A stretch of 64,000 nucleotides of DNA from Arbacia lixula (lineage: Eukaryota > Echinodermata > Echinoidea > Arbacioida > Arbaciidae), in the NCBI GenBank assembly GCA_963669155.1, contig OZ022576.1, positions 35,992,297-36,056,296 on the forward strand. Direction: 5' to 3'. A program made the translations under genes and the position numbers. Shown here one piece after another: positions 9,501 to 60,440 of the stretch. Within the stretch, counting starts at the first letter, position 1. Each line of letters opens with the position of its first letter. Under the pieces are notes generated by a model that was not told where the DNA came from, did no database searches, and saw nothing but the letters and a program-made list of their open reading frames with translations.

Positions 9501-12500
9501 ACAGGGTAAGGAGGTATAGTACGATATAAGGGCACGATTAACATTTTTTATTTCTTATTTTATTTGTTTTTATTTCTGTCGATTAAACGAAATCATGAAT
9601 GTTTTATTTCAAGCCATGTTTAACGAAACGAATTTATTAACTACTAAGTTATTCTAGGGACTCTGCGCTTCAAACATTTATGTTTATGCTTTGTTCCTAC
9701 TATGTATTCTATTTTGATGTAATACCCTGTTCTTGTCAATGTGATTGTTTATTATGCATGGTGAAAATAAATAAACAAACAAACAAATATATGAAATTCA
9801 ATTTGAAGAAAATAGGCAACTTAACCACAAAAAAGGAACCGTTTAAGCGCGGGTCAAAATCGTGACAAACATAAACAGACTGGAAATGCAAATGCAAATA
9901 TATCGCGTGGATGTATGCTACGTTTCATATATCCTTTGTTTGGATAAAATTGTTTTCACCATGATTATAATGATTGCAAAAGTGCTTGCAAATTAAGTCA
10001 AGAGGTAGGTATGAAAAACAACTGTGTTCTTAAACATTTTGTGATAAGTGTCACAATAATGCTCAGTTTGCCCTTAGTTGGCATATTTATCAGTGATGTT
10101 ATTGTTTTTAAACAATTTTTACAGCCGAGATAAAGGTATTGTATTTTTTTTTATTTGTTTAGGAAAGGTTTTTGATTCATATCAAACTTAAAGTAGTATC
10201 ATTAACAAATATGGTGTTAAAATGCCTAGTGTTTAAGTAAACGTATTTGTCAATGTTTTACCTTGTAAAGATCACCATCCTGTGTCCCGACTACAGCAAC
10301 CGTGTGTTCCCTGCCTCGTGCGGTGATGATCGAGGTTACCATGGTAGCGGGAAGAGAGAGGAGGGGGGTTCCCTGAACGGGTGTCACACCAGCAGCGTAC
10401 CTATACAGATATGAGCCACCCCCACCGAAATCCACAAAGGCTGTACATAGGTAGACATCATCTGGTGGTAGGTATTCACGCCAGATTCCCACCTATGAAA
10501 GAGGGCAATTGCCAGGTCTGAATGGTAACGTAATTAACATGATTGACTGATTAGCATCGCTTGTCACACCGTCACAGATTGTTGCTTATCTTGAGAGTGT
10601 TGATGATAGAGTTAACAATACTGAAGCAGGCAGTCATTTATAACAGAATTGAACTGATGACATTTTCATTTCTTTGTTCTTTACGAGTGAGGAAGGGAGA
10701 GGAAAACTTTTGCCACCCACATCCAGAAATGCTGCACACTGGTAGCAATGAAATGATTAATCACTATGCCAGGATGCTGACCATAAAACGAAGAAAACCG
10801 AATAAACTATCAGCTATTTTCATGTTCTATCCCAACCGAAGTAAAGTTTACAACTCGTTACGACTCTGAAAGTAAAATGCACAAGTGATGCTCAGTACAT
10901 AGCTATAGTAGGCATACATACCATGTTACATGCAGTACGATCTAAGTTATCGATTGGTACTCCGGAGTCGTCCCCATATCTGATGCAGCCGAGCACGGCA
11001 GTCTGAAAGATGGATATCACTCACCCTTCATACTCAGACCATACCAGAAATAAAACACCATCACAGCATACGTAAATATATAGGCCTACATATCTACAAT
11101 GTCACAGTGCCCGTAAAGGTAGTCAATTGGTAGGCTTACTCCAGAGTCGTCCTCGTCTTTGATGCAGCCGAGCATGGCGGTCTTAAAGCTTTGCTGGATA
11201 TCACTCATCTTATAGAGACACAGAACCATGCCAAAAAAGTATGAATATCACATAAGTGAATACTTGCAATATCACAGTCAGCACCATCCAGGTAGTCGAT
11301 TGGTACCTCAGAGGAGTCCCTAATGCAGCAGAGCACGGCTGTTTGGAAGCTTTGCTGGATGTCACTCAACGTCTACAGACTCAGAGCCATACCAGAAATA
11401 AAACACCATCAGAGTCTCAGTAAATATACGCCTACATACTAACAATTTCACATCGCCCATTCAGGTAGTCGATAGGTTCTCCAGACTAAAACACAAATAG
11501 AACCTAAGTAAATACTTACATGGTCACAACTCCCCTCCAGGTAGTCGATAGGTACACCAGAGTCGTCGCCGTCTCTGATGCAGCCTAGCACGGCTGTTTG
11601 GAAGCTTTGCTGGATGTCACTCATCCTATAGAGACACAGAGCAGACTCTGCTGGACCTGCCCCGTCTCCAAACACAGCGTACAGGACGCCATCGGTGTTG
11701 TTGATACCCAATGAGTCAGCTAGCTGAGATCCTGCTGGACCAATCTGAGCTGCCTGGATCATGGTGTGAGACCCACACTGGAGTTCTATCTCAGAGTATG
11801 ATTCAAGGCTATCATCTAGTGAATTCGGGCATAACCGACCTATGTATACTGCACTGTTTCTGTTGATGAAATAGTAGAGAAAATCCATAAAGAACACCAC
11901 TTTGATGATTACTTGTTCAGGTGTCCATCCATGTATACCCTGAATGAATTGTAATTGTGAGACGTCACGTTTCGATACAACCGCATAATCTTTACCTTCT
12001 CCTGTAAACAAGTACAGCGCATTGTTCAGCATACCAGTAGAAAGATCGGCACCCGGAACCACCACTCCTACAGTAAGTGCATCTCCTGTGGCAACAACGC
12101 GGTGACTCTCACTGTCATCGTAACGTGTTACATTAGCCGAGATATCCTCCAAGCTCCTCGTCTCGCAATAGCCGTCACAGCCCCCACACGTGATGAGTCT
12201 ATTCTCAGGTGATGGGACAACAAGAAGAAGCTTGTTATCATTGAAGTTGTCTTCATCGTCCCTAGTAATAGTGCATGGTCCTAGAGTCACAGTCTGTTTG
12301 AGAGTGAGGTCCGAACTAAGCTGATAGAGTCTTTCCCGAGCTCCAATGTAGACATCCCCTGTGACATTATTGATGGCGAGGTGGTTGAAGGGTAGGGAAA
12401 GGTTGGGACTGGTGAAGGAGGACACCAGGTATGAGGAGAGGGGAGCAGACTCGGTGAAGTGAGCGAGATGCAAAATAGTAGCAATGAGAACCAAGATTGA

Positions 12501-12509
12501 CAAGGTCAT
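1..12509 (-). CDS. Plexin, 5' half of copy 1 (cut by the left window edge)
   Basis: Sixteen exons of a second plexin, paralogous to the gene at 24689-51056 with the same phases throughout. It starts at 12509 (aagATG) with signal peptide [20 protein letters not shown]. An in-frame ATG at 12542 is possible, but copy 2 has a stop between the two positions, so the downstream one is preferred. Coverage reaches the start of the second IPT domain (exon 1-119, truncated by the window). All exons are open with intact splice sites, so the gene looks functional. Relative to copy 2 the introns carry a 999-bp TTAA-flanked insert and a 2.8-kb longer intron 10261-6925, and lack the LTR element. Confidence 0.92.
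674..1672. mobile_element. Non-autonomous TTAA-flanked DNA element in a plexin 1 intron
   Basis: A 999-bp insert present in copy 1 and absent from the aligned copy 2 intron (about 37898-37905). It is flanked by TTAA at 670-673 and 1673-1676; removing the insert plus one TTAA restores the copy 2 sequence exactly at the junction. Ends are inverted repeats starting CTCTTT (CTCTTTTTGCGTT against CTCTTTGTACGTT). TTAA duplication is typical of piggyBac-type transposition, but no transposase is present and the ends are not a known piggyBac consensus. It contains an internal direct repeat of ~178 bp. Confidence 0.75.
1012..1367. repeat. Internal ~178-bp tandem duplication inside the TTAA element
   Basis: 1012-1187 and 1191-1367 share long identical runs, for example AAGTTTTGAAAAGAAGAAAG and GCCTACAATGCGTACATGTA. 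Confidence 0.88.
2061..3557 (-). CDS. Plexin 1 linker, PSI3 and first IPT exons
   Basis: Exons 3459-3557 ([20 protein letters not shown]), 3047-3137 ([17 protein letters not shown]), 2538-2728 (PSI3, [16 protein letters not shown] with QCGWCETDC) and 2061-2215 ([23 protein letters not shown]). The acceptor of the last exon is gatccttcaacag: this is the uninterrupted version of the site where copy 2 carries the LTR element. Confidence 0.9.
2851..2880. repeat. (CA)n microsatellite
   Basis: In a plexin 1 intron; the partner at 44004-44022 in copy 2 is shorter and interrupted. Confidence 0.9.
3804..6408 (-). CDS. Plexin 1 PSI1, linker and PSI2 exons
   Basis: Exons 6293-6408, 5891-6023, 5477-5530, 4969-5122, 4510-4609, 4255-4369 and 3804-3935, each the same length as in copy 2 (116, 133, 54, 154, 100, 115, 132 nt). 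PSI1 is [16 protein letters not shown] then [14 protein letters not shown]2 is [20 protein letters not shown]. The 3804-3935 exon ends CAG|gcaagc, a good GC-type donor. Confidence 0.9.
6787..12509 (-). CDS. Plexin 1 sema-domain exons
   Basis: Exon 1 11520-12509 (990 nt, 330 codons), exon 10262-10492 (231 nt) and exon 6787-6924 (138 nt), all phase 0. Residues 1-127 and 236-330 are nearly the same as in copy 2, but about residues 128-235 (DNA 11804-12125) are heavily diverged, as is the start of the 10262-10492 exon (WREYLPPDDVYLCTAFVDFG versus [19 protein letters not shown]). Cysteines CGGCDGYC and LQCGSH are kept. Confidence 0.9.
9385..9435. repeat. Tandem repeat of CGCATATATA
   Basis: About five perfect or near-perfect 10-bp units. 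Confidence 0.9.
9600..9790 (+). mobile_element. Possible 3' end of a LINE in the expanded plexin 1 intron
   Basis: An AT-rich 3'-UTR-like stretch ending AAATAAATAAACAAACAAAC, a tail typical of non-LTR retrotransposons. No coding domain was recognised upstream, so at most a truncated remnant. Confidence 0.3.
10922..11485 (-). CDS. Decaying tandem cassette exons after sema exon 1 (plexin 1)
   Basis: Four duplicates of the 3' end of exon 1. Unit b 11444-11485: only 42 nt remain (SGEPIDYLNGRCEI), acceptor ttttag, donor gttagt, 34 nt from exon 1. Unit c 11268-11372: 105 nt, open ([19 protein letters not shown]), original acceptor lost but gtctgtag present, donor gcaagt (GC). Unit d about 11104-11237: open frame but no AG at its start and a weak donor gtagat. 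Unit e 10922-11002: 81 nt, acceptor ctttcag, donor gtatgt, phase 0-0, open ([20 protein letters not shown]). Array membership is certain from repeated PIDYL/PIDNL and SDIQ motifs; use as exons is uncertain. Confidence 0.5.
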
Positions 12510-21499: not shown

Positions 21500-21870
21500 C
21501 CTAGTCATTTACAAATATAATCATAGAAAACCAATCACATATAGCACAGCCGAGTATAACTTCAATCTGAGTAGACGAAACATAAATGTATTACCATCTT
21601 GTGTGATATTTAAGTACTCCCCTAATAATATGTTTATAGAAAACATTCCAATGACATACTGCACAGCCAAGAATTACTTCAAACTAAGTAGATAATGATT
21701 ATAGAAAACATTCCAATACCATACGGCACAGCCGAGAATTACTTCAAACTAAGTAGATAATGATTATAGAAAACATTCCAATACCATACGGCACAGCCGT
21801 GTATGACTACAAACTGAGTAGAATAAACATACGTGTACTACCATCTTCTATGATAATCAGAACTAATCAT
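21500..21870 (+). repeat. Tandem repeat with an open reading frame, unit A
   Basis: Units containing GAAAACATTCCAATACCATA then GCACAGCCGAG and CAAACTGAGTAGA. Fewer units than in unit B. Confidence 0.8.
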
Positions 21871-36900: not shown

Positions 36901-39900
36901 AAAGGTCAAGGTAAGCAGGTGAGCACTCATCTCATTTTGTGGTGTACCTGTGGTTGTGCAGCTGGCTTCATTTTCAGCTACAGTTCTACAAATGTAAAAT
37001 TGATTCAGCACGTTAGAATGTCATCGGGAATGACATCATGAGTTCATGAAACTGTATTGAAATATACAAATATGACAACAAAAAGTAATACATATACTCA
37101 TACCAATGCATACCTGAAATGTCAACAAACAATATCAAGAAACATGGTACAGCTGCCGTTTCAACTTGTATCATGTTAGTGTAAGGACACAAGCACAAGA
37201 TTACTGACTCACAAGTCTATGCACGAGTAGTCTCCAAATGCAGCCGTGATGTCCCTCCCTGTGGCCAGGAACTCTCCTTGAATGGTCACTCTGGTTCCCC
37301 CTGCTGCTAGCCCCACCGTGGGACTAAAACCTGTTATCACTGGGTCCTGTAATAATTTAGAACAAAATAGTCCATAGGCAATTTAGATCTCGTTCAATTC
37401 GCAAGAACAGCAATCAACAAAAGTGAAACTCATTAAATTACAGGTATTAATTTAGAAAAAAAACAGTGGGTAAAATATGAAAAAATAAAACATATACTAC
37501 CGTTGCCTAGGACATAGATTACGACAATTTAAAGAAACCATGCTATTTTTTTCTTTATGCAACACTTAGGTTTAATTAGGACAAAATACACCAAAAGAGG
37601 CGGTTTTTAAACATTTCTCTTCATACCCTGTACAGGAAATTCTCTTGTGATTGCCCTGTCCGGTTCTCTGTCCCTGAATCCACAATGACGCTGACCGTCG
37701 CAGTTGCCACTGTTCCTGATCCGCTCGTAACACATTTTACGCTGAATGAGTAGAAAATAAGAGTTTCACACATAATACAATACAACAAAAAATGTCCTAA
37801 ATTGCAAAGGCTGTCTTGTTTGAAGTATAAACAGTTAACCATGGGTTCATGATATGTCCTGATAGAGTGCACATCAGTTATAGATTCTTCTGCAGTCTTT
37901 TAAAAGGTGCCTGTTCTCCCCTCATGCCTACACATATCAAAAAATAAAACTGCTACCGAATTATGCTGGGAGAATAACTCTACCGTGCCATGTTACGAAC
38001 CTTTGGTTTAATGTTTGTACACAAGACAACAAGTTGGGATATGTTTTTCTGTACAGTTAAAGATTGAACTAATGTTAAGTAACTTTGTGAAATTGTAAAA
38101 ATAACAAACAATTCCTGTCCAAACCTATTTATCACTTTTCATTTTTTGACGTTTCCTGCAAGCTATCAGGTTTGAAAGGTAATAATCAAGCAAAAGGTTG
38201 ATACCATATTCGTAATCCTAGACGAGGTATTGATTTTTAACGAGATACAGAAATTGTGACCAGTAAATCAAAGGTAACAAAGAGTATCACCTCTGTCCTG
38301 CTTGATAAGATGCTTCCATTTCAGTCAAATCACAATTTAAGTCTCCAACTGAAATCCGTATGACGTCTGGGAAAGATACCCCGATGTTGGTTCCTGTGAC
38401 CTCGAGTACAGTATTGCCTTCGATCGGACCAGACTTCGGGTAGAACTGTAGAAGGATCTGTAATGATAGTAAGTCTTGAGACAAGACTACAGCACTTCTC
38501 AAGATGGCAACTGTATCAACACACACACGTATAGTCTGCTGCATTAAAGTTACTACAACGTAGAAGCCTTGTTCGAGTCATCCTATCTGAGTCTACACAA
38601 GATCACAACATGGTGTCAGAAGTCCAAGAACCAGCTCAGAAAATGTACATTTCCGAGGATCAAGGCCCCAAACAGGTGCAGACATTCCGATATTGAGTGT
38701 GAATTACGTGTGTATTAGACTGGCTAGCCAGTGCATTGATATGTATGGTGTATCGAATGTACAGCACACAGTGCACTCTACTGTGTGAGTCTATGACTAT
38801 GTGCGTGTAGAGACATCGCATAGTGCGTACGGCATACTGCTCAATGAAATTGTTTATCTCGTTGTTCTGACGGGTTGAAAAGATACCACTAGAGTAGAAT
38901 GAGAGATTAAAGCTTTGTTCAGAGAGCGATTTACTGAAAAAAAGATTGCAAATATGGCAACCTATCTAAGCCAGCCAGCGCCATTAGACTTGACAGGAAA
39001 TGTAGCAGAAAATTGGAAACGTTTCAAACAAAGGTTTGAACTGTACAATGTAGCTAGTGGTCTGTCGAAGAAAGATGAAAAAACACAGACATCGATGCTT
39101 CTGCATGTCATAGGAGACAAAGCTCTTGACATATACAATACATTCACATTTGCCGCTTCTGGTGATGAGATGAGACTTGAGAAAGTGATGGAAAAATTTG
39201 AGAGGTATGGCATGCCAAAACGAAATGTGACGTATGAGAGGCACAAATTTTTCACAAGGTCACAAGAGGTCGGTGAGAATATTGATCACTATGCAACAGA
39301 ATTGCGCAATCGCGCACAGTCGTGTGAGTTCGGAGAGTTGACTAACAGTCTGATACGGGACAGAATCATCTGTGGTATTTTGGACAATGGTGTTCGTGAA
39401 CGTTTGCTGAGGCAGGATGATTTGACGCTAGAGAAGGCGTTGCAGCTTTGTCGTGCTGCTGAAACCACTCGAGCTCAGGCCCACGAGCTGAGTTCCACCG
39501 GTGAGAGAGTCTCAGTTGATGCTTTAGGGAGTAAAAAACAGTCGTTCAATTCAACATCACACAAAGGTCCAAAACAACAAAGTCAGAAATCAAAATATGC
39601 TTGTGGTAGATGCGGATATAGGCACAGTAGAAATGCATGTCCAGCACAAGGTCAGATCTGCAAGAAATGCGGTAGAGAGAATCATTTTGCAAAGTGTTGT
39701 CGGACTCCAGTTGCTAAAGTAGTAAACGAACTGCAACATATGGAGGAAGGGAATGACGGTTTTGTGGTTGATGTTGTTCAGTCAGCAGATTCTCCTGATG
39801 AATGGATGGTCAATCTTGTGGTGAATGAAAGGCCAGTAGATTTCAAGTTGGATACTGGTGCTCAGACTAACCTCCTTCCAGACTCAGTGTATCAGATGTT

Positions 39901-42900
39901 AAAACCCAAACCAAAGCTGCATTCAGCTAAAGTGAAGTTGACAGGCTATAGTGGGGTAGCCATCCCGGTGAAGGGTCGTTGCTTTGTACAGGTCAAGTAC
40001 AAGGGGTCAACTCACAACATGACGTTTCTAGTCACTCCAGGTAAACGCCAACCATTGCTAGGGTTACAAGCATGTGACAAATTGAAGCTTGTAAAAAGAG
40101 TATTGAATGTCAAACAAACAAACAAACGAGTAGCAGACAGCTACCAAGACGTGTTCGAAGGGCTAGGATGTGTTCCAGGGAAACATCACATCACACTGAA
40201 AGAGAGTGCCCAACCTGTACAACACGCATGCCGGAAAGTTCCATTTGCACTTCGAGGTCAGCTCAAAGATGAATTAGACAAAATGGAACGCATGAAAGTC
40301 ATCACACCAGTGGATGAACCAACTGATTGGGTATCATCGCTCGTGGTTGTGAAAAAGAAAAACGGACAACTCCGTGTGTGCCTAGATCCACGAGATCTAA
40401 ACAGAGCAGTCAAAAGAGAGCACTATCAACTGCCGTCCAGGGAGGAAATCACAGCGCATTTTGCTGGAGCAAAACATTTCAGCAAACTAGATGCGTCCAG
40501 TGGATTTTGGCAGATCGAACTAGATGACGAAAGCTCAAAGCTGTGCACTTTCATCACTCCGTACGGACGGTACAGATTTCTGAGACTCCCATTTGGCGTT
40601 TGCAGTGCTCCAGAAGTGTTTCACAAGATAGTGCATAATTTGTTTGCACACATTCCCGGTGTCAACACAATGATGGATGACATAGTCGTATGGGGAAACA
40701 CCCAAGAAGAGCATGATGCAAGGCTGATACAGGTCCTTGACATAGCCCGGAAAGTGAACCTGAAACTCAACAAAGACAAGTGTGAGTTTGACGTTGGAAA
40801 GCTGACATTCATCGGCGACTTGATCAGCGAACAGGGAGTCCAGCCGGACCCGAAGAAGGTGGCAGCCATCAGAAACATGGAAAGGCCACAATGCAAACAA
40901 GACGTCCAAAGGTTCTTGGGTATGGTCAACTACCAAGGGAAGTTCATACCAGACTTAGCCACAAAGTCAGCCCCTCTCAGAAGTCTACTTGACAAGAAAA
41001 ATGAGTGGATGTGGCAAGACCCACAAGAGAAAGCCTGGCATCAACTCAAAGAAGCGCTGACAGAGCAACCAGTGCTACACTTCTATGACTGCGCAAAACC
41101 AACAAAAGTATCAGCAGATGCTTCAAAGAATGGTCTCGGTGCAGTGCTACTGCAGCAACATGATCACGAATGGGTTCCCGTAGCATATGCATCACGAGCA
41201 ATGACCGATGCAGAGACACGCTATGCACAAATAGAAAAAGAACTGCTGGCAATAACGTACGCATGCGAACGATTTCACCAGTACATCTATGGACAACAGG
41301 TTGAAGTGGAGACTGACCACAAACCACTCATACCGTTGTTCATCAAACCACTCTGTGACTGTCCTCTTCGCATTCAACGCCTACTCATCAGGGTGCAGCG
41401 ATATGATTTGAAAGTGTCATACACACCTGGCAAGTACATGCACACTGCAGATGCATTGTCCAGAGCGGTAGATCCAGAGGCCGAGACGAATGTTGACAGA
41501 GAAGAAGACATCAGAGTCCATGTCGATGCTGTGATGATGAATCTACCAGTTACGTCCAACAGACGCAGCCAGTTTGTCGAAGAGACAAAGAAAGACAACA
41601 CACTACAAGAGCTATTAGGCATCATCAGAGATGGATGGCCTAATACAAAACAGCAGTGTCCAGTAGCAGTCAGAGAATACTGGAACATCAGAAGCGAGCT
41701 GTCAGAAGCTGAAGGCATGATCCTGAAAGGCAGCAAGATAGTAGTACCAGCTACAATGAGACCGTTGATGTTGCGCAAAATCCATGAAGGACACCTGGGC
41801 ATAGAAAAGTGCAAGAAACGTGCACGTGAAGTCTTGTATTGGCCCAGGATCAATCAAGACATAGCTGCAATGGTACAAGACTGCAACTCATGCCTGATGT
41901 ACAAGCCTAGACAACAGACGGAGAGTCTACAACCCCATGCAGTACCGAACAGACCATGGGAAAAGATCGCTGCAGATTTGTTCACGTTGAACAACAAGGA
42001 GTACATGGTGATCGTTGACTACTATTCGCAGTTTGTTGAAGTCTGTAACATGACTACAACTACAAGCAAAGCAGTGATCAAACACATGAAAGCGGTATTC
42101 TCCCGTCAAGGCACTCCATGCGAGCTTGTAACTGACAACGGTCCACAGTTTGCAAGTCAAGAATTCAAGAGCTTTGCAAGTGAATGGGACTTTGGTCACA
42201 CAACAACAAGCCCGTATCACCCACAGTCCAATGGACTAGCGGAAACTGCGGTGAAGATCGTCAAGAATCTCATCCGCAAGTGCGAACACAGTGGGCAAGA
42301 TGTCTACAGAGCTTTGCAAGTGTACAGAAGCTCACCACTGGAATGTGGAAAATCGCCTGCAGAACTGCTGTACAATCGGCGCATGAGATCAAACCTGCCC
42401 ATGGTAGACAAACTACTAGATCCCCAGCACATCGATCCTCGTTCGGTGAAAGAGAGGAAGGAAAGGCAGAAAGTGAAGCAGAAAGAGCGTTACGACAAAC
42501 ACGCTCAAGACCTACCAGAGTTCAACGTAGGTGACCATGTCAGACTCGAAGACATGCACAACAACCGATGGGCTCAACGCGGTACCATCACGTCGAAGCT
42601 ACCAAATAGATCATACTTGGTAGAGACTGACAGGGGTGAGATTCGTCGCAGAAATAGACGTCATCTCAGACCTGCACCACCGACACAACGAGCCGAGCAC
42701 ATCCAACATCCCACGCAGATGGACAGCGATCTGGATGACTACGCAGAATTCCCAGCGCAACCAGCTGAAGCTGCAGAGCAATCCGCGTCCTCGTTCAGAA
42801 CAACCCGACATGGAAGAATTAGCAAACCACCCGAACGCATGGACTTGTAAAGCGAATACTAAAAGAACTTTCGCGCTTTTATGTAGAATTAGTCGCGTTT

Positions 42901-45900
42901 TATGTAGAATTAGTAAAGAGATCAAGTTGAAGTAATCTAGAAAAACTTGATAGCATGAATGTAACTATGTTTTATGTTTCATCAGCAAGATTTGGATAAG
43001 CAGCTGATTATCTTCAACGCGAACCAGTGATGGAACTGAACTCTTAATACAAAGGACTGGATAAATATTCTTTAAAGATCTGCAACCGGATCCACAATAT
43101 ACGTTGACTATTATAAGATACATGTACTAGTTATAGTACAGTTAGTGTTTCAAAGAAAAGTATACAAATTGACTGTCTGACATATTTGGAACCTGATACA
43201 AAGGATATGATGAGAATAAGTTTACTTTAATGAAAAGAATGTAAACCTTCTTTTTAAAGAAAGGGAGGTGTAATGATAGTAAGTCTTGAGACAAGACTAC
43301 AGCACTTCTCAAGATGGCAACTGTATCAACACACACACGTATAGTCTGCTGCATTAAAGTTACTACAACGTAGAAGCCTTGTTCGAGTCATCCTATCTGA
43401 GTCTACACAAGATCACAACAGGATCATGATTCAAACACAAATACCATGTGGAGTATTATGATTTAAAGGGTCTCTTCTATGTGTTTCCAAAGTGTGTCTC
43501 CTAATACTACATCAAATAAGGCGCCAAACTAGTCAAATGTACTAGATGAGCTAAAATGATTGGATGATTTTAATAGTCTTAACTGAAGAAAAAGAAGTCA
43601 CCCACCCATGTTTTCCATTCGATATTTGACATCTTTACAAATTTTAAAGATAACAGATGTCTATATGAAAATAAAATCTTGCTCACGTCAATAATCTCTG
43701 GTCCGTCACAAAGTTGGGTCTGATTCTGCCACAGGAAAGTGTTTGTCTGGCAGACGTCACTCTGTAAGACGTTACAGTCTGTCTCACACCAGCCACACTG
43801 TAGCATCGGTGGAGTCGCCTCTGGAGACAGGCACCGACTGCAACTGCCGCTGTTTACGGAGCACTTGTACAGAGTCACTGCCAAGTGAAAATATGAAGTT
43901 TAAAATTTTTCAACTGAATTGAAACTAAAAAAGGCGTCAATTTGCCAATTTGTTTACGATTCATAGAACAGTTCAAGTTTGTAACAACCATTGAAATGTA
44001 CAAACACACACACGCACACACCCACGAACTACACTACTTCATAAAGGAATTGGTTTTACTGGCCTTTCTTTAAATCAAAATATGAAGTTATCATGATGTG
44101 TAAATGCCGAGTGTAAAACCTTGATCAGGATAATAATTAGTTCATCCATAAAAGTTACTATCGAAGAATACAAGAAGCCGTTCATACCATGCGTGTCCAT
44201 CAAGTCATCGATGTCATTGCCGTTCAGCCTAACATACACACTCGCGTTGATGCGGAGCATATCTTCTTGGTAGTTGTACTGCAATGTCAAATTTGTGAAA
44301 AGGACACTCTGGTGAGGTGTCTCCAATTTTCAGAATCCACACTCCTAAAACTACTGAAATACGTTGATAATCATCGGGAGATATATTTGTGACAATGCTA
44401 GCATACGGATCTGAGTCATGTGGTCCATTGACCTGTTCTTCTAGCACTAACAAATGATATTCCTCATAACAAAATTATCTCCTTATTTGCTTTAACGCCG
44501 ACAACTTATGTAAAAAAATTTTTCCTCCTACAGAGAAGATACAATCGTCATCCTTCAAATAGCATCCAAGTACACCATATCACATAGTCTTAGAAAGTTC
44601 CTTACCAATCTCTCCGGACAAACAACGTAGGTGGTGTTGTAATCGATGCTCTGTACTGCAACATCACTCCCTTCCACGTGGATGATGCACTCGTAGGTTT
44701 GTACCTGGAAAATGAAGAGTGGAACAAGGAACGGGAAAAAAAACATATTACTACATTTTTAATCGGTTTAGATATTAATTTCGAATGCAGAATTTCAAGT
44801 AATTATTTGTTTGATAAGCATGTAAGACTTAATAATAAAGGAATATATCTACGTCCTATATCATGTGGTTCTTATGATCGCATTCCATTTTGTTTCTTAT
44901 ATCATGCAATTATGCATCGTATTTGTCAAGCTCGCCTGATTTGTAGGTAGATTCTTTGCCAGTACGATGTAGCCTGATGGAACATTGACTGGTAGAAGAA
45001 GCTCCTCGGCAGTCCCCAGCAGCTGTGGGCAGTATTCTTGTCCTCTGTTTTCAGAATCGAATGGATTCTGTGGATATGAACATAGAAATATACACACTTG
45101 AATGAATTTAGATAATCATTTGCCAGACATGATCGATTCATATTTTAGTGTCGTAGTACGCTAATCATTTCATTCAAGGGGGCGTAAATATTGCTGAAGA
45201 AAGGAATGGTGGATTTTGAGCTGCTCATTGTGAATTGTGACATAAGAACGTGTTTCTATTATAACTTTTAACAACGGAAAAACAAATACCGAGGATTAAG
45301 CAGAAAGGTTCAAACGAATCACAATGCTACCAGCTGCTCCATTTAAAGAAATAAGCATAGGCCAGAAGAGGTCAGCGGCGACTTACATTGGCTCCTATCA
45401 CGATGGTGTCTCCTGCCTGGCACAATGTGTTGTCATGGGTACATTGGTTGTCTTGGACACACCAATTACAGGGCCAAGGACTCTTCACACATACGGAGCA
45501 TCTGGATATTAAGGAACAAATCAATATCTGAATAAATATCATTGATCTAATGTTCGATGTTTATCTATTGTATGACTGAATGATCCATTTTATGATTATC
45601 TTTTTTTATTATACTTGACATGATCAATGAGAGAAGTACAGCATCATGTTAACATGATGAATAAATGAATAAACATTACAGGTTCTCAACAAGAGAAGAT
45701 CTAAGTGTTTTAAAATATGAATTGTGTTATGATATGATTTTATCGATGACATGTTTTCAGGTCATCTAACGTTTACCAGTGCTAATATTAAGGAGTAACC
45801 ATTGGCAACATTGACATATAAATGTAAAGGTAACTCACGACTCAATGAGGCTACAGTCGAAGAAGGTGAACTGAGTGATGACAAAGCTGACGTCAGTTTC

Positions 45901-48900
45901 GGTTGCAATAATGTGAAGGGGAACACTGACAGAGCTGGCTGCAATAAGACGAACATGAATATTTACTTGATTAATGTAGTAAATAGATATTCCTATCGAA
46001 ATTGGATTAAATCATTAATGCTTCTTTATACTAGGGGTTAACAAGAACTTTTGACACTTTTGAGAAATGATTTTTAAAAAATTACAACTCGAATGAATCT
46101 CAGTTTGACACATAATATCACAGAATGTCAATTATTTGGAAGCAGGTTTTGTGACATTTCATCAATTACCTTTCTTATATTACAGTCCTGTGAACATCTA
46201 ATGAGATTTTCATTTTTGCACAAATTTGCAATCTCTGCCAACTCAGGTGCCATAGTAAAGTATGAATTGGAGGGAACCATTGAAACTGATGGAAATACTG
46301 CTCACCTCCTGGTGATATATATGGTAGTTCGCTCGTTGGGGGCGTCAGACATGTGACGTCATCATTGTTAGTGGTCGCAGACACGGTGTAAGAATCGAAA
46401 GCACATCGGTACTGGTTGCTACCACTAAGAGACGGAAGCTGCTGTACAGTGATGGTGATCTGTAGTGGAAATGTGACGTTTATTGAATTGAAAGCACACT
46501 GAATTCACATGCGTGCTTCGTACATGATGTGTATGATATAGGCACAACTGCTTCCTTTTATATCGATTCTACACGAAACTAATAAAACTTAGACTTCTGA
46601 CATTTCTTTTGTGTTATTAAGTCGTACCGAAGTGCACACTCTCTCATATAATGTTAACTAATATCATCTTTTTCAGTATTAATAGTAGTAATAGAAGTAA
46701 CAATACAATTTATTGATCAATCTGTTTGAAAATAAGCAAGCAAAAAGAAGACCACGTGATACTTGGACCTGTATCTGCTGTTAGCCTACCAGTGATATTA
46801 TCCACCGGGCTAACCGTTTGACTTGTGATAATGGACTTAGGACTCAGTTCATAAATTGCCATGGTTACCTATTGAGAAATTACGATCTGGAAGAGGAGCT
46901 TTTCGAATCGAATTTATCTGCCTTGCAAATTTACTTTTTTAGTACAACATTGAGGAAAATGTAAGAGAATGTCAATGATTTGCAGAAATCGATAATGGAC
47001 ATGATGGAGATTAGTGTTAATTGGCCTAATGCTGATTTTCACTCAAATTGTATGCAATTTCGAAAGCTTAAACGTACTTGAACGAATGATATTCGCTAAC
47101 AGGTTGTCTCACTGGCAGGAAGACACATGCATATCGTTCTCATAACGAATTTTCTAATCGAATCTATCTTTGTGCGTGTTTTTTTTGTAAAATTCCAATA
47201 AACACTGCATGCAATTATTTTGCATGGAATTCCGAAGGCTTGAGGGTATTTGATATTCAAAGTGCAAAGTTCACAAATTAAAGCACTGACTTGCTGTTCG
47301 GTCTCCTCATATGGGATTTCGCTTCCTGGTTGAACATCTGAGATGCCGACACACTGCAAGGCGTTGTAGGGCAGCCAACGGGTAGACTCACTGGCTAGAG
47401 GACACTCCTCATATCGTGTGCACCTTGAGTAGGAGGAAAGGAAGGATCAAGGGTATGGCATCGTCATGAACTCTTCGAAAGTCCAAGAGCATTATACGCG
47501 ACTGATTTCTCATTTAAAAGTGATTAAGGCTATTATTAACGTGCCCTAGATGCACCAATGTAAAATGTTTGGTCACAGTTAGGGTGCAAATGTTCATCGA
47601 TTACCAATTAGACCACACAATAAATGCAATTGAACTCACCTTTACTAGCTTTCTGGTAATGATAATCGTTAACGGCCAAGAAAGTGTAAATAAAGATTAT
47701 ATTTCAACATAAAGAATGAAAAGGGCTACCTCGCCTCCAGTGTGCACCAGCCACAGTACGGATCCCAGTCATTCTCTCCATTATCACCAATACACTCATC
47801 ACACGTCTGGTACTGACCGCAGTTCACCAAGGATAATTTCACCACCTGTAAGAGAGGAAGGTGTCCCGACATTGCCAAACTAAGCCGACACGGATAAGAC
47901 TTTGTCCTCAGGTTCATAATGCTTTACCTATGCAAAATAGAAGCACAATCACTCTACAACATCAAAATAAATCTTCTCATTCCAGTCTGTCGATTCTGAA
48001 TTCAGTGTATTCTTGCATATTGCACCGCCCTGGTAGGCCTCCGACGATTTAAGTACGAGCCATGTAATAGAGAAAAAACGTAATGGGATAAATGCAATTT
48101 TGTAATAGCAATTCGCGTCAAGCATTTCAACACTAATTTACCTGTGCAGTTAAGTCGACGTTAGTGACAGTATAAATTGTACTGCGCATACACGATGTGG
48201 ATCATAGGGCAGTGTGCCACGTACCTGTGATCCGTTAGTAGCACTTGTTGCAAGGGTGAGTTGTTCCTTCTGTTCATCGAGGAAGATGTCGCGTAGAACA
48301 GACCCTCCTTCGAGGGGTATCGTTTCGTACTCAGACGCAAACGTTGCATTGATGATATGAATCTGTGCACGTAAAATACACACAGAGAAACACTCTGAAT
48401 GACAAAATATCATGGTCTTTGAAGTCGAGATGGAAAAGCTCATATGGTAACTTGATTAACAAAATGAATTGATTTGAATAAATACAGAGAAACAGAGTAC
48501 CGCGTGTCAGTGACCCAACAAACGTTGCAACACAGTACTAAACTATCCCATGTTGCACATTGCAATTTAAAGGGCGCACATATCAGGATGAAATTGTTAC
48601 ATATAATTATCAGGCTTATGTCCATGATGATTGTAATTGCCAAAGTCAAAGGTCAGTTTCTCTCTGGATTAAAAAAACAACAACAATGTTTTTGCTTTGT
48701 GATGTATGTCTCGAAAATGTTTACGAATGATGTTTATTTCTGGAAACATTCTGTTACGTTCCAGGTATTGAATTGTATTGTATTTAGACACATGTTAGAT
48801 ATGTTTATAATGAGAGGTTTACGTTTATTTTCCAAGTCATCACATCATTTTTTTAACTGTTGTTTAAATGACAATTGCTAATGATAATATATGTGCTACC

Positions 48901-51056
48901 TTGTGCAGATAACCATCCTGTGTCCCGATTACAGCCACCGTGTGTTCCCTGTCTCGTGTGGTGATGATGGATGTTACCATTGAAGTAGGGAGGGAGAGGA
49001 GGGGAGTTCCTTCAACAGGTGTCACACCAGCGGCGTACCTATACAAATTGCCTATCTCATCATGTGAAGCTGTACACAGGTAGCCATCATCTTGTGGTTG
49101 GTAATATGATGGGGCTCCCTGAAATGAAAGAATACTATTAAAATGTATTACGAAGTATACAGTAGTTATGACGGGCTGGCCTACCTGATTACACATTACA
49201 CAATTTAGTAATGTCTGCGGTAGTGAAGCCAGGGGAGGTGAGGAGGATGGAGGGGGGTGGGGTGGGGCGGGGGTGAGCTTGTATGTGTTCGTTTGTAGGT
49301 ACATATAGGGGAAGGAAATGCAAATGATTACAATGATACTGATATTTCTTACAATGAGTGATTCGTTATAAGGAAGTTATTTTTGTTTTAAAATGTTGCT
49401 CATTGGCTTTGCCATTGTGTATTATTTATGCATATTACATAAGAACAATGAAAACGACGTCCAGAACGTCACTGCAGATCAAAGGAATTCCCCCTGACTA
49501 TGATGATGGTTGTTATCGGGTTAGTCAGGAGTCTACTTCCCTATAAGTACTAACTCACCTGGTCACATTTACTGCATTTTTGAAAGTCGATTGGCACTTC
49601 ATAGTCTTCAATATGTCTGATGCAACACTGTTGTCTGAAAGCTTTGCTGGATATCATTCATCGTATAAAGACACAGAACCATGCCAAACTAAAACACAAA
49701 TAGAACCTAGGTTAATACTTACAAAGTCACAATCAGCATCAGGCAGGTAGTCGATTGGTACGCCAGCGTCGTCCCCGTCGTTGATGCAGCCTAGCGCGGC
49801 TGTTTGAAAGCTTTGATGGATGTCACACATATTAAAGATAAACATAATGATGCCAAACTAAAACACAACCTAAGTAAATACTTACATCGTCACAACTCCC
49901 CTCCAGGTAGTCGATTGGTACACCAGAGTCGTCGCCGTCTCTGATGCAGCCAAACACGGCTGTTTGAAAGTTTTGCTGGATGTCACTCATCGTATAGAGA
50001 TACATAATCAGGCCAAACTGAAACACAAATAGAACCTAATCAGATACTTACAATGTCACAGCTAGCACCATCCAGGTAGTCGATTGGTACACCAGAGTCG
50101 TCCCCATCTCTGATGCAGCCGAGCACGGCTGTCTGAAAGCTTTGCTGGATGTCACTCATCCTATAGAGACACAAAGCAGACTCTGCCGGAGATGCCCCGT
50201 CTCCAAACACAGCGTACAGGACGCCATCGGTATTGTTGATTCCCAATAAGTCAGCTAGCTGAGATCCTGCTGGACCAATGTGAGCTGCCTGGATCACGGT
50301 GTGAGACCCGCACTGGAGTTCTATCTCAGAGTATGATTCAAAGTACCGATCTAGTGATTTAGGGCACAGCCGTCCTATGTACGTTTTATCAATCCTTTCG
50401 ATGAAAAAGTACAAAAAATCCATGTAGGAAATAACGTGCACAAACCTATTGTCAGGTACATAACTAGAGTAGATACCCTGGTCCATATCTAAATCTGCCA
50501 CATGACGTTTTGATATAATCTGCTGATCTGCACTAACTCCAGTAAACAAGAACAGAGCATCATCCAGAAGACCGGAAGTGAAATCAGCACCCAGGACCAC
50601 AACTCCTACAGTGGGAGCATCTCCTGTGGCTAAAACCCGCTGAATCGAAGACTCATTGTGACGTGTTACATTAGCCGTGATATCCTCCAAGCTCCTCGTC
50701 TCGCAAAAGCCGTCGCAACCCCCGCATGTGATGAGTCTATTCTCGGGTGACGGGACAACAAGAAGAAGCTTGTTATCATTGACGTTGTCTTCATAGTTCC
50801 TAGTGCATGGTCCTAGAGTCACAGTCTGTTTGAGAGTCAGGTCCGAGCTGAGCTGATAGAGTCTTTCCCGAGCTCCGATGTAGACATCTCCTGTGACGTT
50901 GTTGATGGCGAGGTGGTTGAAGGGTAGGGAGAGGTTGGGACTGGTGAAGGAGGACACCAAGTAAAAGGAGAGGGGAGCAGACTCGGTGAAGTGAGCAAGA
51001 TGCAAAATGGTGGCAGTGAGCACCAAGTGAGCACCAGTGAGCATTGACAGGATCAT
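24689..51056 (-). CDS. Plexin, complete gene (copy 2 of the tandem array)
   Basis: Transmembrane semaphorin receptor of the plexin family. I traced 36 coding exons by splice sites, reading phase and resemblance to vertebrate plexins; their lengths add to 5610 nt, i.e. 1869 residues plus stop, close to the usual plexin size (about 1900). Order: signal peptide, sema, PSI1, linker, PSI2, linker, PSI3, IPT-like domains, membrane span near residues 1241-1265, juxtamembrane coiled segment, GAP part 1, Rho-binding domain, GAP part 2, stop at 24689-24691. The start at 51056 is chosen because the AAG-ATG context is conserved in copy 1 and the next upstream ATG in copy 2 meets a stop after five codons. 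One intron holds an LTR element in opposite orientation. The two arginine-finger motifs of the GAP domain appear replaced. Known family role: semaphorin binding outside, small-GTPase control inside. Plexin class (A/B/C/D) not assigned. Confidence 0.93.
25344..25477. mobile_element. Small foldback element (candidate MITE) in a plexin 2 intron
   Basis: 134 bp with imperfect terminal inverted repeats: CCTATAATGCGCCGCGCAGC against CCCATAATGCACCGTGCAGC, followed by further matching sequence toward the centre (GTCCGCTTACGG against GTCCGCTTCCGG). No empty site is available here. Confidence 0.5.
27710..29177 (-). CDS. Plexin 2 Rho-GTPase-binding domain exons
   Basis: Exons 29024-29177 (154 nt), 28450-28547 (98 nt) and 27710-27806 (97 nt), phases 0-1, 1-0, 0-1. 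Motifs: [20 protein letters not shown] (plexin [20 protein letters not shown]), [13 protein letters not shown] (plexin EWRQGRMARIILQ), [10 protein letters not shown] (plexin KRLNTLAHYQ) and [11 protein letters not shown] (plexin DGSSVALVPKQ). This ubiquitin-like insert in plexins binds Rac/Rnd-type GTPases. The donor of the third exon (CAGT|gtttgt) is weak and was chosen because it alone preserves frame with the next exon. Confidence 0.88.
28611..28660. repeat. (CA)n microsatellite
   Basis: Long CA run 64 bp upstream (transcript sense) of the exon 28450-28547; it accounts for the open frame rich in Cys-Val here. Confidence 0.92.
29178..29580. repeat. Minisatellite abutting a plexin 2 exon
   Basis: About fourteen copies of a 28-29-bp unit near AGCTACAGAAGGTGTCAAAA plus CATATACC, starting directly at the acceptor of exon 29024-29177. 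The acceptor and its upstream tract are therefore made of repeat-edge sequence. Confidence 0.85.
29933..33913 (-). CDS. Plexin 2 GAP domain, first segment
   Basis: Exons 33753-33913, 32257-32372, 31507-31572, 31074-31151, 30498-30564 and 29933-30079 (161, 116, 66, 78, 67, 147 nt). They encode the helix leading to IPARDY-type motif ([20 protein letters not shown]), [34 protein letters not shown], and [20 protein letters not shown] with [14 protein letters not shown], almost identical to the plexin [14 protein letters not shown]. In vertebrate plexins the first segment has a double arginine in LLRRTESVAEK; here the matching stretch reads LFSESNSIADS, so the RR pair is absent. That reading depends on the 31074/30564 splice junction, which is in phase with good GT and AG sites. 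Confidence 0.88.
30950..30993. repeat. (CA)n microsatellite
   Basis: Uninterrupted CA run in a plexin 2 intron. Confidence 0.92.
32797..33556. mobile_element. Foldback element with ~210-bp inverted arms in a plexin 2 intron
   Basis: Left arm about 32797-33010, right arm about 33345-33556. Shared runs include CATGCATGAGTGGGCAAATT and CTGTGTGAAAATCAC in inverse orientation, and both ends start AACACAACA followed by a C-rich run (the right one a long G run on this strand). Lies between the exons 33753-33913 and 32257-32372. Confidence 0.65.
34784..35009 (-). CDS. Plexin 2 transmembrane and juxtamembrane exon
   Basis: One 226-nt exon (phase 0-1). After a short extracellular stalk it encodes the span [20 protein letters not shown] plus ALLLLW, then a basic stop-transfer KQRKYS and a charged helix ([20 protein letters not shown]) like the plexin juxtamembrane coiled coil. 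Predicted position is about residues 1221-1296, with the span near 1241-1265. Confidence 0.93.
35344..38445 (-). CDS. Plexin 2 IPT/TIG-domain exons
   Basis: Seven exons: 38291-38445, 37627-37741, 37213-37346, 36812-36985, 36450-36549, 35828-36064 and 35344-35541; phases 0-2, 2-0, 0-2, 2-2, 2-0, 0-0, 0-0. IPT starts are visible as [40 protein letters not shown] and [14 protein letters not shown]. The sixth exon ends [16 protein letters not shown], the conserved plexin YYPDP motif before the last IPT. A basic run SRRKKA in that exon might be a convertase site (inference). The acceptor of the first exon (AG at 38446-38447) lies 11 nt from the edge of the LTR insertion. Confidence 0.9.
38459..38610 (+). 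repeat. 5' LTR
   Basis: 152 bp, TG...CA ends, same as the LTR at 43269-43420 by eye. Confidence 0.93.
38915..42850 (+). CDS. Gag-Pol polyprotein of the LTR element
   Basis: A single open frame of 1311 codons (the first likely used Met may be the later one at 38954, [10 protein letters not shown]). Domains in order: capsid-like Gag to about residue 225; two zinc knuckles about 230-262 (CGRCGYRH.., CKKCGRENH..); aspartic protease with [10 protein letters not shown] near 313; reverse transcriptase with [17 protein letters not shown] and MMDDIVVWG near 585; RNase H with [13 protein letters not shown] near 733; integrase with [10 protein letters not shown] zinc region near 957, then TDNGPQF and [12 protein letters not shown]. 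Gag and Pol share one frame, as in several Mag-lineage elements. No envelope and no obvious chromodomain. Confidence 0.95.
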   Translation: MFRERFTEKKIANMATYLSQPAPLDLTGNVAENWKRFKQRFELYNVASGLSKKDEKTQTSMLLHVIGDKALDIYNTFTFAASGDEMRLEKVMEKFERYGMPKRNVTYERHKFFTRSQEVGENIDHYATELRNRAQSCEFGELTNSLIRDRIICGILDNGVRERLLRQDDLTLEKALQLCRAAETTRAQAHELSSTGERVSVDALGSKKQSFNSTSHKGPKQQSQKSKYACGRCGYRHSRNACPAQGQICKKCGRENHFAKCCRTPVAKVVNELQHMEEGNDGFVVDVVQSADSPDEWMVNLVVNERPVDFKLDTGAQTNLLPDSVYQMLKPKPKLHSAKVKLTGYSGVAIPVKGRCFVQVKYKGSTHNMTFLVTPGKRQPLLGLQACDKLKLVKRVLNVKQTNKRVADSYQDVFEGLGCVPGKHHITLKESAQPVQHACRKVPFALRGQLKDELDKMERMKVITPVDEPTDWVSSLVVVKKKNGQLRVCLDPRDLNRAVKREHYQLPSREEITAHFAGAKHFSKLDASSGFWQIELDDESSKLCTFITPYGRYRFLRLPFGVCSAPEVFHKIVHNLFAHIPGVNTMMDDIVVWGNTQEEHDARLIQVLDIARKVNLKLNKDKCEFDVGKLTFIGDLISEQGVQPDPKKVAAIRNMERPQCKQDVQRFLGMVNYQGKFIPDLATKSAPLRSLLDKKNEWMWQDPQEKAWHQLKEALTEQPVLHFYDCAKPTKVSADASKNGLGAVLLQQHDHEWVPVAYASRAMTDAETRYAQIEKELLAITYACERFHQYIYGQQVEVETDHKPLIPLFIKPLCDCPLRIQRLLIRVQRYDLKVSYTPGKYMHTADALSRAVDPEAETNVDREEDIRVHVDAVMMNLPVTSNRRSQFVEETKKDNTLQELLGIIRDGWPNTKQQCPVAVREYWNIRSELSEAEGMILKGSKIVVPATMRPLMLRKIHEGHLGIEKCKKRAREVLYWPRINQDIAAMVQDCNSCLMYKPRQQTESLQPHAVPNRPWEKIAADLFTLNNKEYMVIVDYYSQFVEVCNMTTTTSKAVIKHMKAVFSRQGTPCELVTDNGPQFASQEFKSFASEWDFGHTTTSPYHPQSNGLAETAVKIVKNLIRKCEHSGQDVYRALQVYRSSPLECGKSPAELLYNRRMRSNLPMVDKLLDPQHIDPRSVKERKERQKVKQKERYDKHAQDLPEFNVGDHVRLEDMHNNRWAQRGTITSKLPNRSYLVETDRGEIRRRNRRHLRPAPPTQRAEHIQHPTQMDSDLDDYAEFPAQPAEAAEQSASSFRTTRHGRISKPPERMDL
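43269..43420 (+). repeat. 3' LTR
   Basis: 152 bp, preceded by a purine-rich tract and followed by the ggatc target duplication. Confidence 0.93.
43687..45067 (-). CDS. Plexin 2 exons from PSI2-PSI3 linker to PSI3
   Basis: Exons 44936-45067 (132 nt), 44606-44704 (99 nt), 44188-44278 (91 nt) and 43687-43877 (191 nt). The first ends CAG|gcgagc, a GC donor; copy 1 has CAG|gcaagc at the same place, so the GC-AG intron predates the duplication. Exon 44188-44278 has [12 protein letters not shown], equivalent to the plexin VVWNGNF segment. Exon 43687-43877 begins [16 protein letters not shown] and includes QCGWCETDC, the third PSI. Confidence 0.88.
45387..46868 (-). CDS. Plexin 2 inter-PSI and PSI2 exons
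   Basis: Exons 46815-46868 (54 nt), 46306-46459 (154 nt), 45839-45938 (100 nt) and 45387-45501 (115 nt). The 54-nt exon uses the donor ACG|gttagc; a second GT 25 nt further on would break the frame. The segment matches the plexin region between PSI1 and PSI2: [15 protein letters not shown], then SPGG and a [11 protein letters not shown] end. The last exon is PSI2: [20 protein letters not shown] followed by THDNTLC, very close to the plexin CLSC..CHWC..LCTHD..C pattern. Confidence 0.9.
47291..47845 (-). CDS. Plexin 2 PSI1 exons
   Basis: Exon 47730-47845 (116 nt, phase 0-2) encodes [16 protein letters not shown] followed by [11 protein letters not shown], the cysteine-rich PSI signature (C..C..C...CGWC) that follows the sema propeller in plexins. 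Exon 47291-47423 (133 nt, phase 2-0) completes the module with [20 protein letters not shown] and a CVGISDVQP segment. The corresponding exons in copy 1 differ only slightly. Confidence 0.92.
48225..51056 (-). CDS. Plexin 2 sema-domain exons
   Basis: Exon 1 is 50052-51056 (1005 nt, 335 codons, phase 0, donor gtaagt). Then come exons 48900-49118 (219 nt) and 48225-48362 (138 nt), all phase 0. Exon 1 begins with a hydrophobic signal peptide ending near AHFTES and contains conserved sema features such as the cysteine cluster [11 protein letters not shown] and [11 protein letters not shown]. Exon 48900-49118 gives the blade with TPVEGTPLL and [13 protein letters not shown], matching the plexin TPVEG..FVGTKSGKLKK region. 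Exon 48225-48362 holds [12 protein letters not shown], like the plexin DGSPILRDMAFS. The first kilobase is intronless while the rest of the gene is cut into exons of 54-237 nt. A set of duplicate cassette exons lies in the first intron and is listed separately. Confidence 0.9.
49559..50017 (-). CDS. Tandem cassette exons duplicating the end of sema exon 1 (plexin 2)
   Basis: Three further copies of the last ~130 nt of exon 1. Unit b, 49886-50017: 132 nt, acceptor tttcag, donor gtaagtat, phase 0-0, encodes [20 protein letters not shown] and continues to [11 protein letters not shown]. Unit c, 49723-49857: 135 nt, acceptor ttttag, donor gtaagtat, phase 0-0. Unit d, about 49559-49688: a small deletion shifts its frame, but an internal acceptor at 49628-49629 would give an open 69-nt phase 0-0 exon (49559-49627, donor gtgagt). 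Spacers are 34 nt (exon 1 to b), 28 nt (b to c) and 34 nt (c to d): shorter than normal animal introns, so neighbouring units cannot be joined to each other. They are either alternative exons or by-products of a ~165-bp tandem duplication across the exon 1 donor. The gene reads through without them. Confidence 0.55.
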
Positions 51057-59824: not shown

Positions 59825-60440
59825 TACAAATATAATCATTACAGAAAACATTCCAATGACATATAGCACAGCCGAGTATAACTTCAATCTGAGTAGACGA
59901 AACATACATGTATTACCATCTTGTGTGATAATTAAGTACTCCCCTAATAATATGTTTATAGAAAACATTCCAATTACATACGGCACAGCAGAGAATGACT
60001 TCAAACTGAGAAGAATAAACATTAATGTACTACTATCTTTTGTGATGATCAAGATCTTCACCTATTTAAAACAAATTATTACAGAAAACATTCAAATGAC
60101 ATACCGCACAGCCAAGAATTACTTCAAACTAAGTAGATAATGATTATAGAAAACATTCCAATAACATACGGCACAGCCGAGTATGACCACAAACTGAGTA
60201 GAATAAACTTACGTGTACTACTATCATTTGTGATAATCAAGATCTACACCTATCTTAATACAATTATTACAGAAAACATTCCAATACCATACGGCACAGC
60301 CGAGAATTACTTCAAACTAAGTAGATAATGATTAGAGAAGACATTCCAATACCATACAGCACAGCCGAGTATGACCACACACTGAGTAGAACAAACATAC
60401 GTGTACTACCATCTGCTGTGATAATCAGAACTAGTCATAA
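59825..60440 (+). repeat. Tandem repeat with an open reading frame, unit B (expanded)
   Basis: About six units, alternating long (~120 bp) and short (~62 bp) forms. Translation gives repeated ENIPITYGTAE and FKLSRINIRVLLSFVIIKI, with successive frames meeting at TAATGA-like joints. No start context, splice pattern or homology suggests a protein. Confidence 0.8.

Follow-up and report, generated by a model that had tools for sequence, protein, structure and literature searches.

Do tandem copies of an exon end, each furnished with splice signals, give a plexin-like gene alternative exons, or are they the by-product of a duplication that crossed an exon-intron border? The question is raised by a stretch of 64,000 nucleotides (nt) from the sea urchin Arbacia lixula (C1:35992297-36056296 of a 607-Mb assembly; here called the window), which carries two plexin-like genes, gene 1 and gene 2, on its minus strand. 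The original prediction was that the 3' ~130 nt of the first exon of gene 1 recurs downstream as tandem cassette exons, too closely spaced to be spliced together, that could supply alternative versions of part of the sema domain. It also named a simpler alternative, a tandem duplication over the exon-intron border, and this is the alternative that the evidence favors.

RESULTS

The repeat unit spans the border between exon 1 and intron 1

Gene 1 begins with a single first exon of 1005 nt (51056-50052), which joins exon 2 in phase 0 by way of a GTAAGT donor at 50051 and an acceptor at 49118. Four copies (a to d) of a unit made of ~130 nt of exon 1 end and ~34 nt of intron lie in tandem there, and the first, copy a, is part of exon 1 and lacks an acceptor (Table 1). 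The predicted repetition was recovered by Tandem Repeats Finder (period 169, 3.3 copies, score 655). The spacers a-b, b-c and c-d measure 34, 28 and 34 nt and bear gtaagtat donors and tttcag or ttttag acceptors, again as predicted. The claim that all units stand in phase 0-0 was right for b and c, each of which has an uninterrupted frame from AG to GTAAGT, and wrong for d, which, read from 49688, is 130 nt long, shifts frame and runs into TGA. Only an internal acceptor at 49627, with pyrimidines at 6 of the 11 preceding bases, would yield an in-frame piece of d. The donors of a, b, c and d match the consensus at 7, 7, 6 and 9 of 9 positions, respectively.

The repeat unit of the array is an exon end, a donor and an intron start, set head to tail, which is the arrangement of a duplication that crossed the border. 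Excerpts of the account of the potato RdRp gene describe a parallel, in which a tandem duplicate spanning one intron-exon boundary brought splice signals and created a new splice structure (PMC4974935). In an ancestral plexin-like gene of echinoids, an old tandem duplication over the boundary of exon 1 with intron 1 would have copied ~130 nt of exon end, the donor and ~34 nt of adjoining intron, and in one subfamily the copied intron stretch would terminate in a TTTTAG-like acceptor. The array would then have been inherited with gene duplication, copies being gained and lost, and would have been cut and rejoined through exchange between family members. Because the units have equal phase and donor, exchange within a unit can leave exon 1 spliceable. 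The units would normally be skipped, with exon 1 joined to exon 2, such that the array would be a passive by-product or, at most, a place for recombination. We conclude that tandem duplication across the border, followed by inheritance, decay and recombination in an expanded plexin family, is the probable origin of the array.

Downstream copies are spread through the family and have decayed

To place the array in its family, exon-1 ends were surveyed in the assembly. An array query gave 65 matches, from which 30 stretches were fetched; together with the two genes of the window, these supplied the 34 exon-1 ends of the survey (a partial exon 1 at C1:51184289-51185101 was left out of the fetched set). 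A protein search gave 72 matches, and the top 30 are near full-length exon 1 copies with 70-100% identity and no stops. Downstream copies follow 29 of the 34 ends, with 84 hits (1-9 per end; nhmmer E up to 0.01, many of them short), 4 of which fall inside partial exon-1 duplications. There were no hits behind 5 ends, one behind 7, two behind 13, three to five behind 5 and seven to nine behind 4. Judged by their downstream hits, L020-L022 are near-identical loci, as are L029, L030 and L032.

The exon ends are intact, with open cores in 33/34 and GTRAGT donors in 30/34. Fifty-seven downstream units were long enough to assess, 23 in a cluster of genes at 36-38 Mb and 34 elsewhere. The core is open in 22 of the 57 (12/23 in the cluster and 10/34 elsewhere), a GTRAGT donor is present in 11/23 and 9/34, and an acceptor of narrow pattern ([CT]AG before TTT or TCT) is present in 15/23 and 0/34. 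Moreover, donors are retained without regard to frame: in the cluster they occur in 6/12 open versus 5/11 broken units (p = 1.0), and outside it in 4/10 versus 5/24 (not significant). Automatic classification misplaced some donors, for example that of unit c, and complete cassettes were counted by unit-by-unit reading of the eight cluster genes. Four complete in-phase cassettes were found: b, c, and units 1 and 2 of locus L011. L012 unit 1 has an open, in-phase frame and a GTAGGT donor; L013 unit 1, which a core-only automatic test had called complete, was rejected, being out of phase with a stop. Thus, frame and splice sites are not kept together across related genes, units 1 and 2 of L011 being the exceptions. 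L011 (G000:C1:37868800-37875000) also has the largest array of the cluster, an exon end and nine downstream copies.

Constraint was further assessed at those codons that 95% of exon ends conserve, with exon ends scored by leaving one out; 118 hits gave 93 aligned at >=40 bits and 82 after removal of near duplicates, 4 partial exon-1 copies being uncounted. Exon ends depart from the conserved codon at 14/402 positions (3.5%), complete cassettes at 8/52 (15%), four open units without GTRAGT at 9/52 and the 40 other downstream units at 155/499 (31%). In a core of 29 codons, units b and c have 7 private changes that alter the amino acid and 1 that is silent; the exon copies a and a' differ by 0 and 6, respectively (Fisher p = 0.0047). 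Under neutrality, 72-78% of core changes would be expected to alter the amino acid, so the two units appear to have evolved neutrally or under positive selection.

Several results weigh against decay as the whole account. L011 unit 2 keeps 13 of 13 conserved codons (0/13 departures) and L011 unit 1 departs at 1/13. Pooled, the eight open cluster units show fewer departures than the rest of the downstream units (p = 0.015). The pairwise ratio of nonsynonymous to synonymous divergence (dN/dS) among six open downstream units is 0.28 rather than 1 (exon ends, 0.15), although part of that divergence may date from time as an exon. A test of nonsynonymous to synonymous singletons did not separate the unit classes (p = 0.44 to 0.47), and was probably biased by saturation at silent sites. 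A looser AG rule passes some units outside the cluster, such as L023 unit 5, which is open with a GTATGT donor. Lastly, the excess of amino acid changes in b and c could be due to positive selection.

In another reading, b and/or c, and units 1 and 2 of L011, would be working cassettes that add a second strand-helix-loop of ~45 residues to the sema domain in some transcripts. The intact conserved codons of L011 unit 2 speak for it. The four units, in two genes, are open in phase 0-0 with acceptor and donor, and the donor of a lies 194 nt from c, a possible intron, and 363 nt from d. The predicted joining of exon 1 to c or d is therefore allowed by distance, but because copy a lacks an acceptor, b and c would be additions rather than replacements, and d entered at 49688 is frameshifted. 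In addition, the exon 1 donor is just 34 nt from b, and open frame and splice sites are uncoupled across units. The unit nearest to c, L009 unit 1 (9% apart), lacks a GTRAGT donor. The segment is present in 47 of 51 database relatives, once in each and twice in 0/47; these are gene models rather than RNA evidence, and both searches for relatives had length limits that omit many full-length models. Joined directly, gene 1 has a linker of 16 residues between segment and exon 2, within the 12-26 residues of the 11 relatives that could be matched. Inclusion of unit c in some transcripts is possible, not supported, and we consider working cassettes unlikely.

The array of gene 1 resembles a mosaic, and exchange seems not to be confined to it

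The array of gene 1 resembles different relatives along its length. Among 10 loci, L011 or L012 is the closest match to the stretch at ~50350-49930 (0.93-0.98; L014 in one window), gene 2 is the closest to 49990-49871 (0.95), and past that part L009 is mostly the closest (up to 0.97; L010 in one window). The change from L011-like to gene-2-like sequence falls within b (24 informative sites; permutation p = 0.00017), the 5' portion of which resembles L011 unit 1 and the remainder the exon end of gene 2. Family-wide, the nearest copy of a downstream unit belongs to another gene in 47/48 cases (28 downstream units and 19 exon ends) and is its own exon end in 1/48, which suggests that most arrays predate the genes as they now stand. 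The nearest copy of an exon end is another exon end in 27/30, a partial exon-1 duplication in 2/30 and a downstream unit in 1/30.

The idea that exchange is special to the array was considered and dropped. A block comparison initially gave correlations of 0.77-0.86 between parts of exon 1 and of 0.04-0.18 with the exon end, a contrast attributed to two loci, L016 and L026, that lack most of exon 1. When these were removed (32 of 34 loci, other blocks, rank correlation), block pairs gave Spearman values of -0.10 to 0.46, with Mantel p <0.05 in 3 of 10 pairs, none involving the exon end. Most blocks of exon 1 being poorly correlated, the sequence comparisons suggest that exchange spans the whole exon and is not specific to the array. 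Along exon 1, residues 186-205 (50501-50442 in gene 1) are hypervariable (identity 0.32, dN/dS 0.90, 23 exon-1 copies), and residues 246-285 belong to a more uniform 3' part (synonymous divergence [dS] ~0.15, 23 copies).

Exchange could give the array a use in two ways. In one, a row of equal-phase exon ends, each with a donor, would let unequal exchange among ~30 plexins re-assort the sema domain of a recognition-type receptor family while splicing stays intact, and the intact copies of gene 1 and L011 would be spliced in as well, as an additional strand-helix-loop module; we regard this combination as unlikely. In the other, the downstream units would be a store of silent cassettes that renew the end of exon 1 by gene conversion, as in the cassette systems of antigenic variation. 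Consistent with a store, unit b is chimeric and has its nearest copy in the exon end of gene 2 (7% apart). Only 1 of the 30 exon ends lies nearest a downstream unit, however, and transfer could have run in either direction. Moreover, correlations are poor for the remaining blocks of exon 1 too, and exchange seems not to be array-specific. We conclude that renewal from silent cassettes is quite improbable.

Poison exons and mutually exclusive exons are improbable readings of the array

Unit d and L009 unit 2 are 3% apart and have a broken frame in common, with acceptor and donor retained. Units of this kind (d, L009 unit 2, and L011 units 6 and 8) could be poison exons that lower expression, and the d type is common to two genes. 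Plain inheritance of the repeat explains the pattern equally well, and the narrow-pattern acceptor is confined to one cluster, which makes poison exons very improbable.

The array resembles clusters of mutually exclusive exons in its similar tandem units, its short spacers and a duplication that takes part of the intron (excerpts of PMC6071210 and PMC5740500). It differs from them in that its first unit is not a cassette and many units are broken. The original prediction envisaged alternative sema segments held apart by their spacing, with an internal donor (GCT/gtgttt at 50210) permitting the segment to be exchanged. The spacing argument held for neighboring units and failed for a-c, a-d and b-d, and the proposed donor was weak, matching 4/9 consensus positions; the strongest other GT within 50400-50150, at 50382, matches 6/9. 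That a, b, c and d are mutually exclusive is hardly credible: spacers of 28-34 nt would agree with the steric rule applied to human exclusive exons, a donor lying <50 nt from the branch point (PMC5740500, in excerpt), but a lacks an acceptor, d is broken, distance does not bar three of the pairs, and introns that are too short impose exclusivity only where the cluster has two members (PMC6071210, in excerpt).

The window genes are plexin-like and lie in a ~38-kb duplication

Exon 1 of gene 1 and that of gene 2 both scored above the cutoff for Sema (PF01403). In PDB, exons 1 and 2 of gene 1 matched chains of plexin A from fly and of plexin A/B from vertebrates (best E, 5.1e-23), and Plexin_RBD downstream of gene 1 reached 26.2 bits against a cutoff of 27 (two of three frames scanned). 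Exon 1 matched 45 proteins, the named ones being plexin-like proteins of the sea urchins Strongylocentrotus, Lytechinus and Diadema. In a 46-row tree, both window genes fell outside a 36-row clade with the named Strongylocentrotus and Lytechinus rows and joined that clade apart from 8 other rows (two of them Diadema), at a weak fork (79/94). In the AlphaFold model of the Strongylocentrotus relative P0046, the repeated segment, which is presumably the sema extrusion, is predicted to form a strand (295-302), a helix (303-319) and a loop to Cys336. The model rests on a 31-row alignment, with a mean predicted local distance difference test score (pLDDT) of 65.4 and block values of 79-95 over 291-340. 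Many sea urchin models (e.g., P0001-P0005, P0003, P0007 and P0010) end soon past the exon-1 border, at ~344-362 amino acids, sizes that the length limits of the searches favor. They look like exon 1 read into the intron, and may be gene-model artefacts or short secreted sema proteins.

Window positions 1-24879 and 37228-63576 form a ~38-kb tandem duplication, the long matches of which are mostly 91-95% identical (range, 82-98). Between genes 1 and 2, dS is 0.37 for exon 1, 0.46 for exon 2, 0.25 for exon 3 and 0.26 for exon 4; pooled over seven later exon pieces, exon 4 included, it is 0.095 (one further piece was not found in gene 1). Sema exons 1-3 have thus diverged more than the later exon pieces and the flanks, and the recognition domain appears either to have undergone exchange or to have stayed separate. 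The duplication itself may be an allelic (haplotype) duplication in the assembly. A retrotransposon-like insertion, presumably of Ty3 type, occupies 38459-43420 in a stretch homologous to the 3' part of gene 2; it has an unbroken polyprotein frame and is probably young, as its 152-bp ends are identical. Separate tandem repeats at 59834-60427 and 21630-21822, with periods of 65, 117 and 188 bp, are similar in both copies.

Table 1. Positions in the window of the exons, repeat units and spacers of the two plexin-like genes
Feature	Position	Strand	Description
Exon 1, gene 1	50052..51056	-	N-terminal sema part, 335 codons; open frame, PF01403, PDB plexin chains
Unit a	50052..50183	-	Exon 1 end; clear homology from ~50179; no acceptor; GTAAGT at 50051
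Spacer a-b	50018..50051	-	34 nt
Unit b	49886..50017	-	132 nt, 44 codons, open; AG acceptor; GTAAGT donor at 49885
Spacer b-c	49858..49885	-	28 nt
Unit c	49723..49857	-	135 nt, 45 codons, open; AG acceptor; GTAAGT donor at 49722
Spacer c-d	49689..49722	-	34 nt
Unit d	49559..49688	-	130 nt, frameshift and TGA; acceptor ttttag; 9-of-9 donor CAG/GTGAGT at 49558
Exon 2, gene 1	48900..49118	-	Sema domain carried on, phase 0
Exon 1, gene 2 (paralogue)	11520..12509	-	Open frame, PF01403
Unit b', gene 2	11444..11485	-	Final part of unit only; donor gttagt
Unit c', gene 2	11268..11393	-	Stop codon; no AG; donor gcaagt
Unit d', gene 2	11097..11234	-	Open; no AG; donor gtagat
Unit e', gene 2	10913..11045	-	Stops and 5-nt deletion
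Exon 2, gene 2	10262..10492	-	

DISCUSSION

Tandem duplication across an exon border would be a simple way for splice-competent copies of an exon end to arise, multiply and decay. The array carries a warning: units that are open, in phase and well flanked are, by themselves, no evidence of alternative exons. Should cassette splicing occur in this family, the best place to look for it is L011, with its two complete in-phase cassettes.

A starfish has 11 plexins, and a plexin expansion is also cited for a sea urchin, in excerpts of the published account (PMC6374515). The family described here is likewise a lineage-specific plexin expansion in an echinoderm. It differs from the starfish account, in the excerpts of which neither arrays of exon ends nor sema exons of mosaic make-up appear. 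The analysis points to an echinoid plexin family with a variable and apparently mosaic sema exon, one that would deserve study as a possible recognition system.

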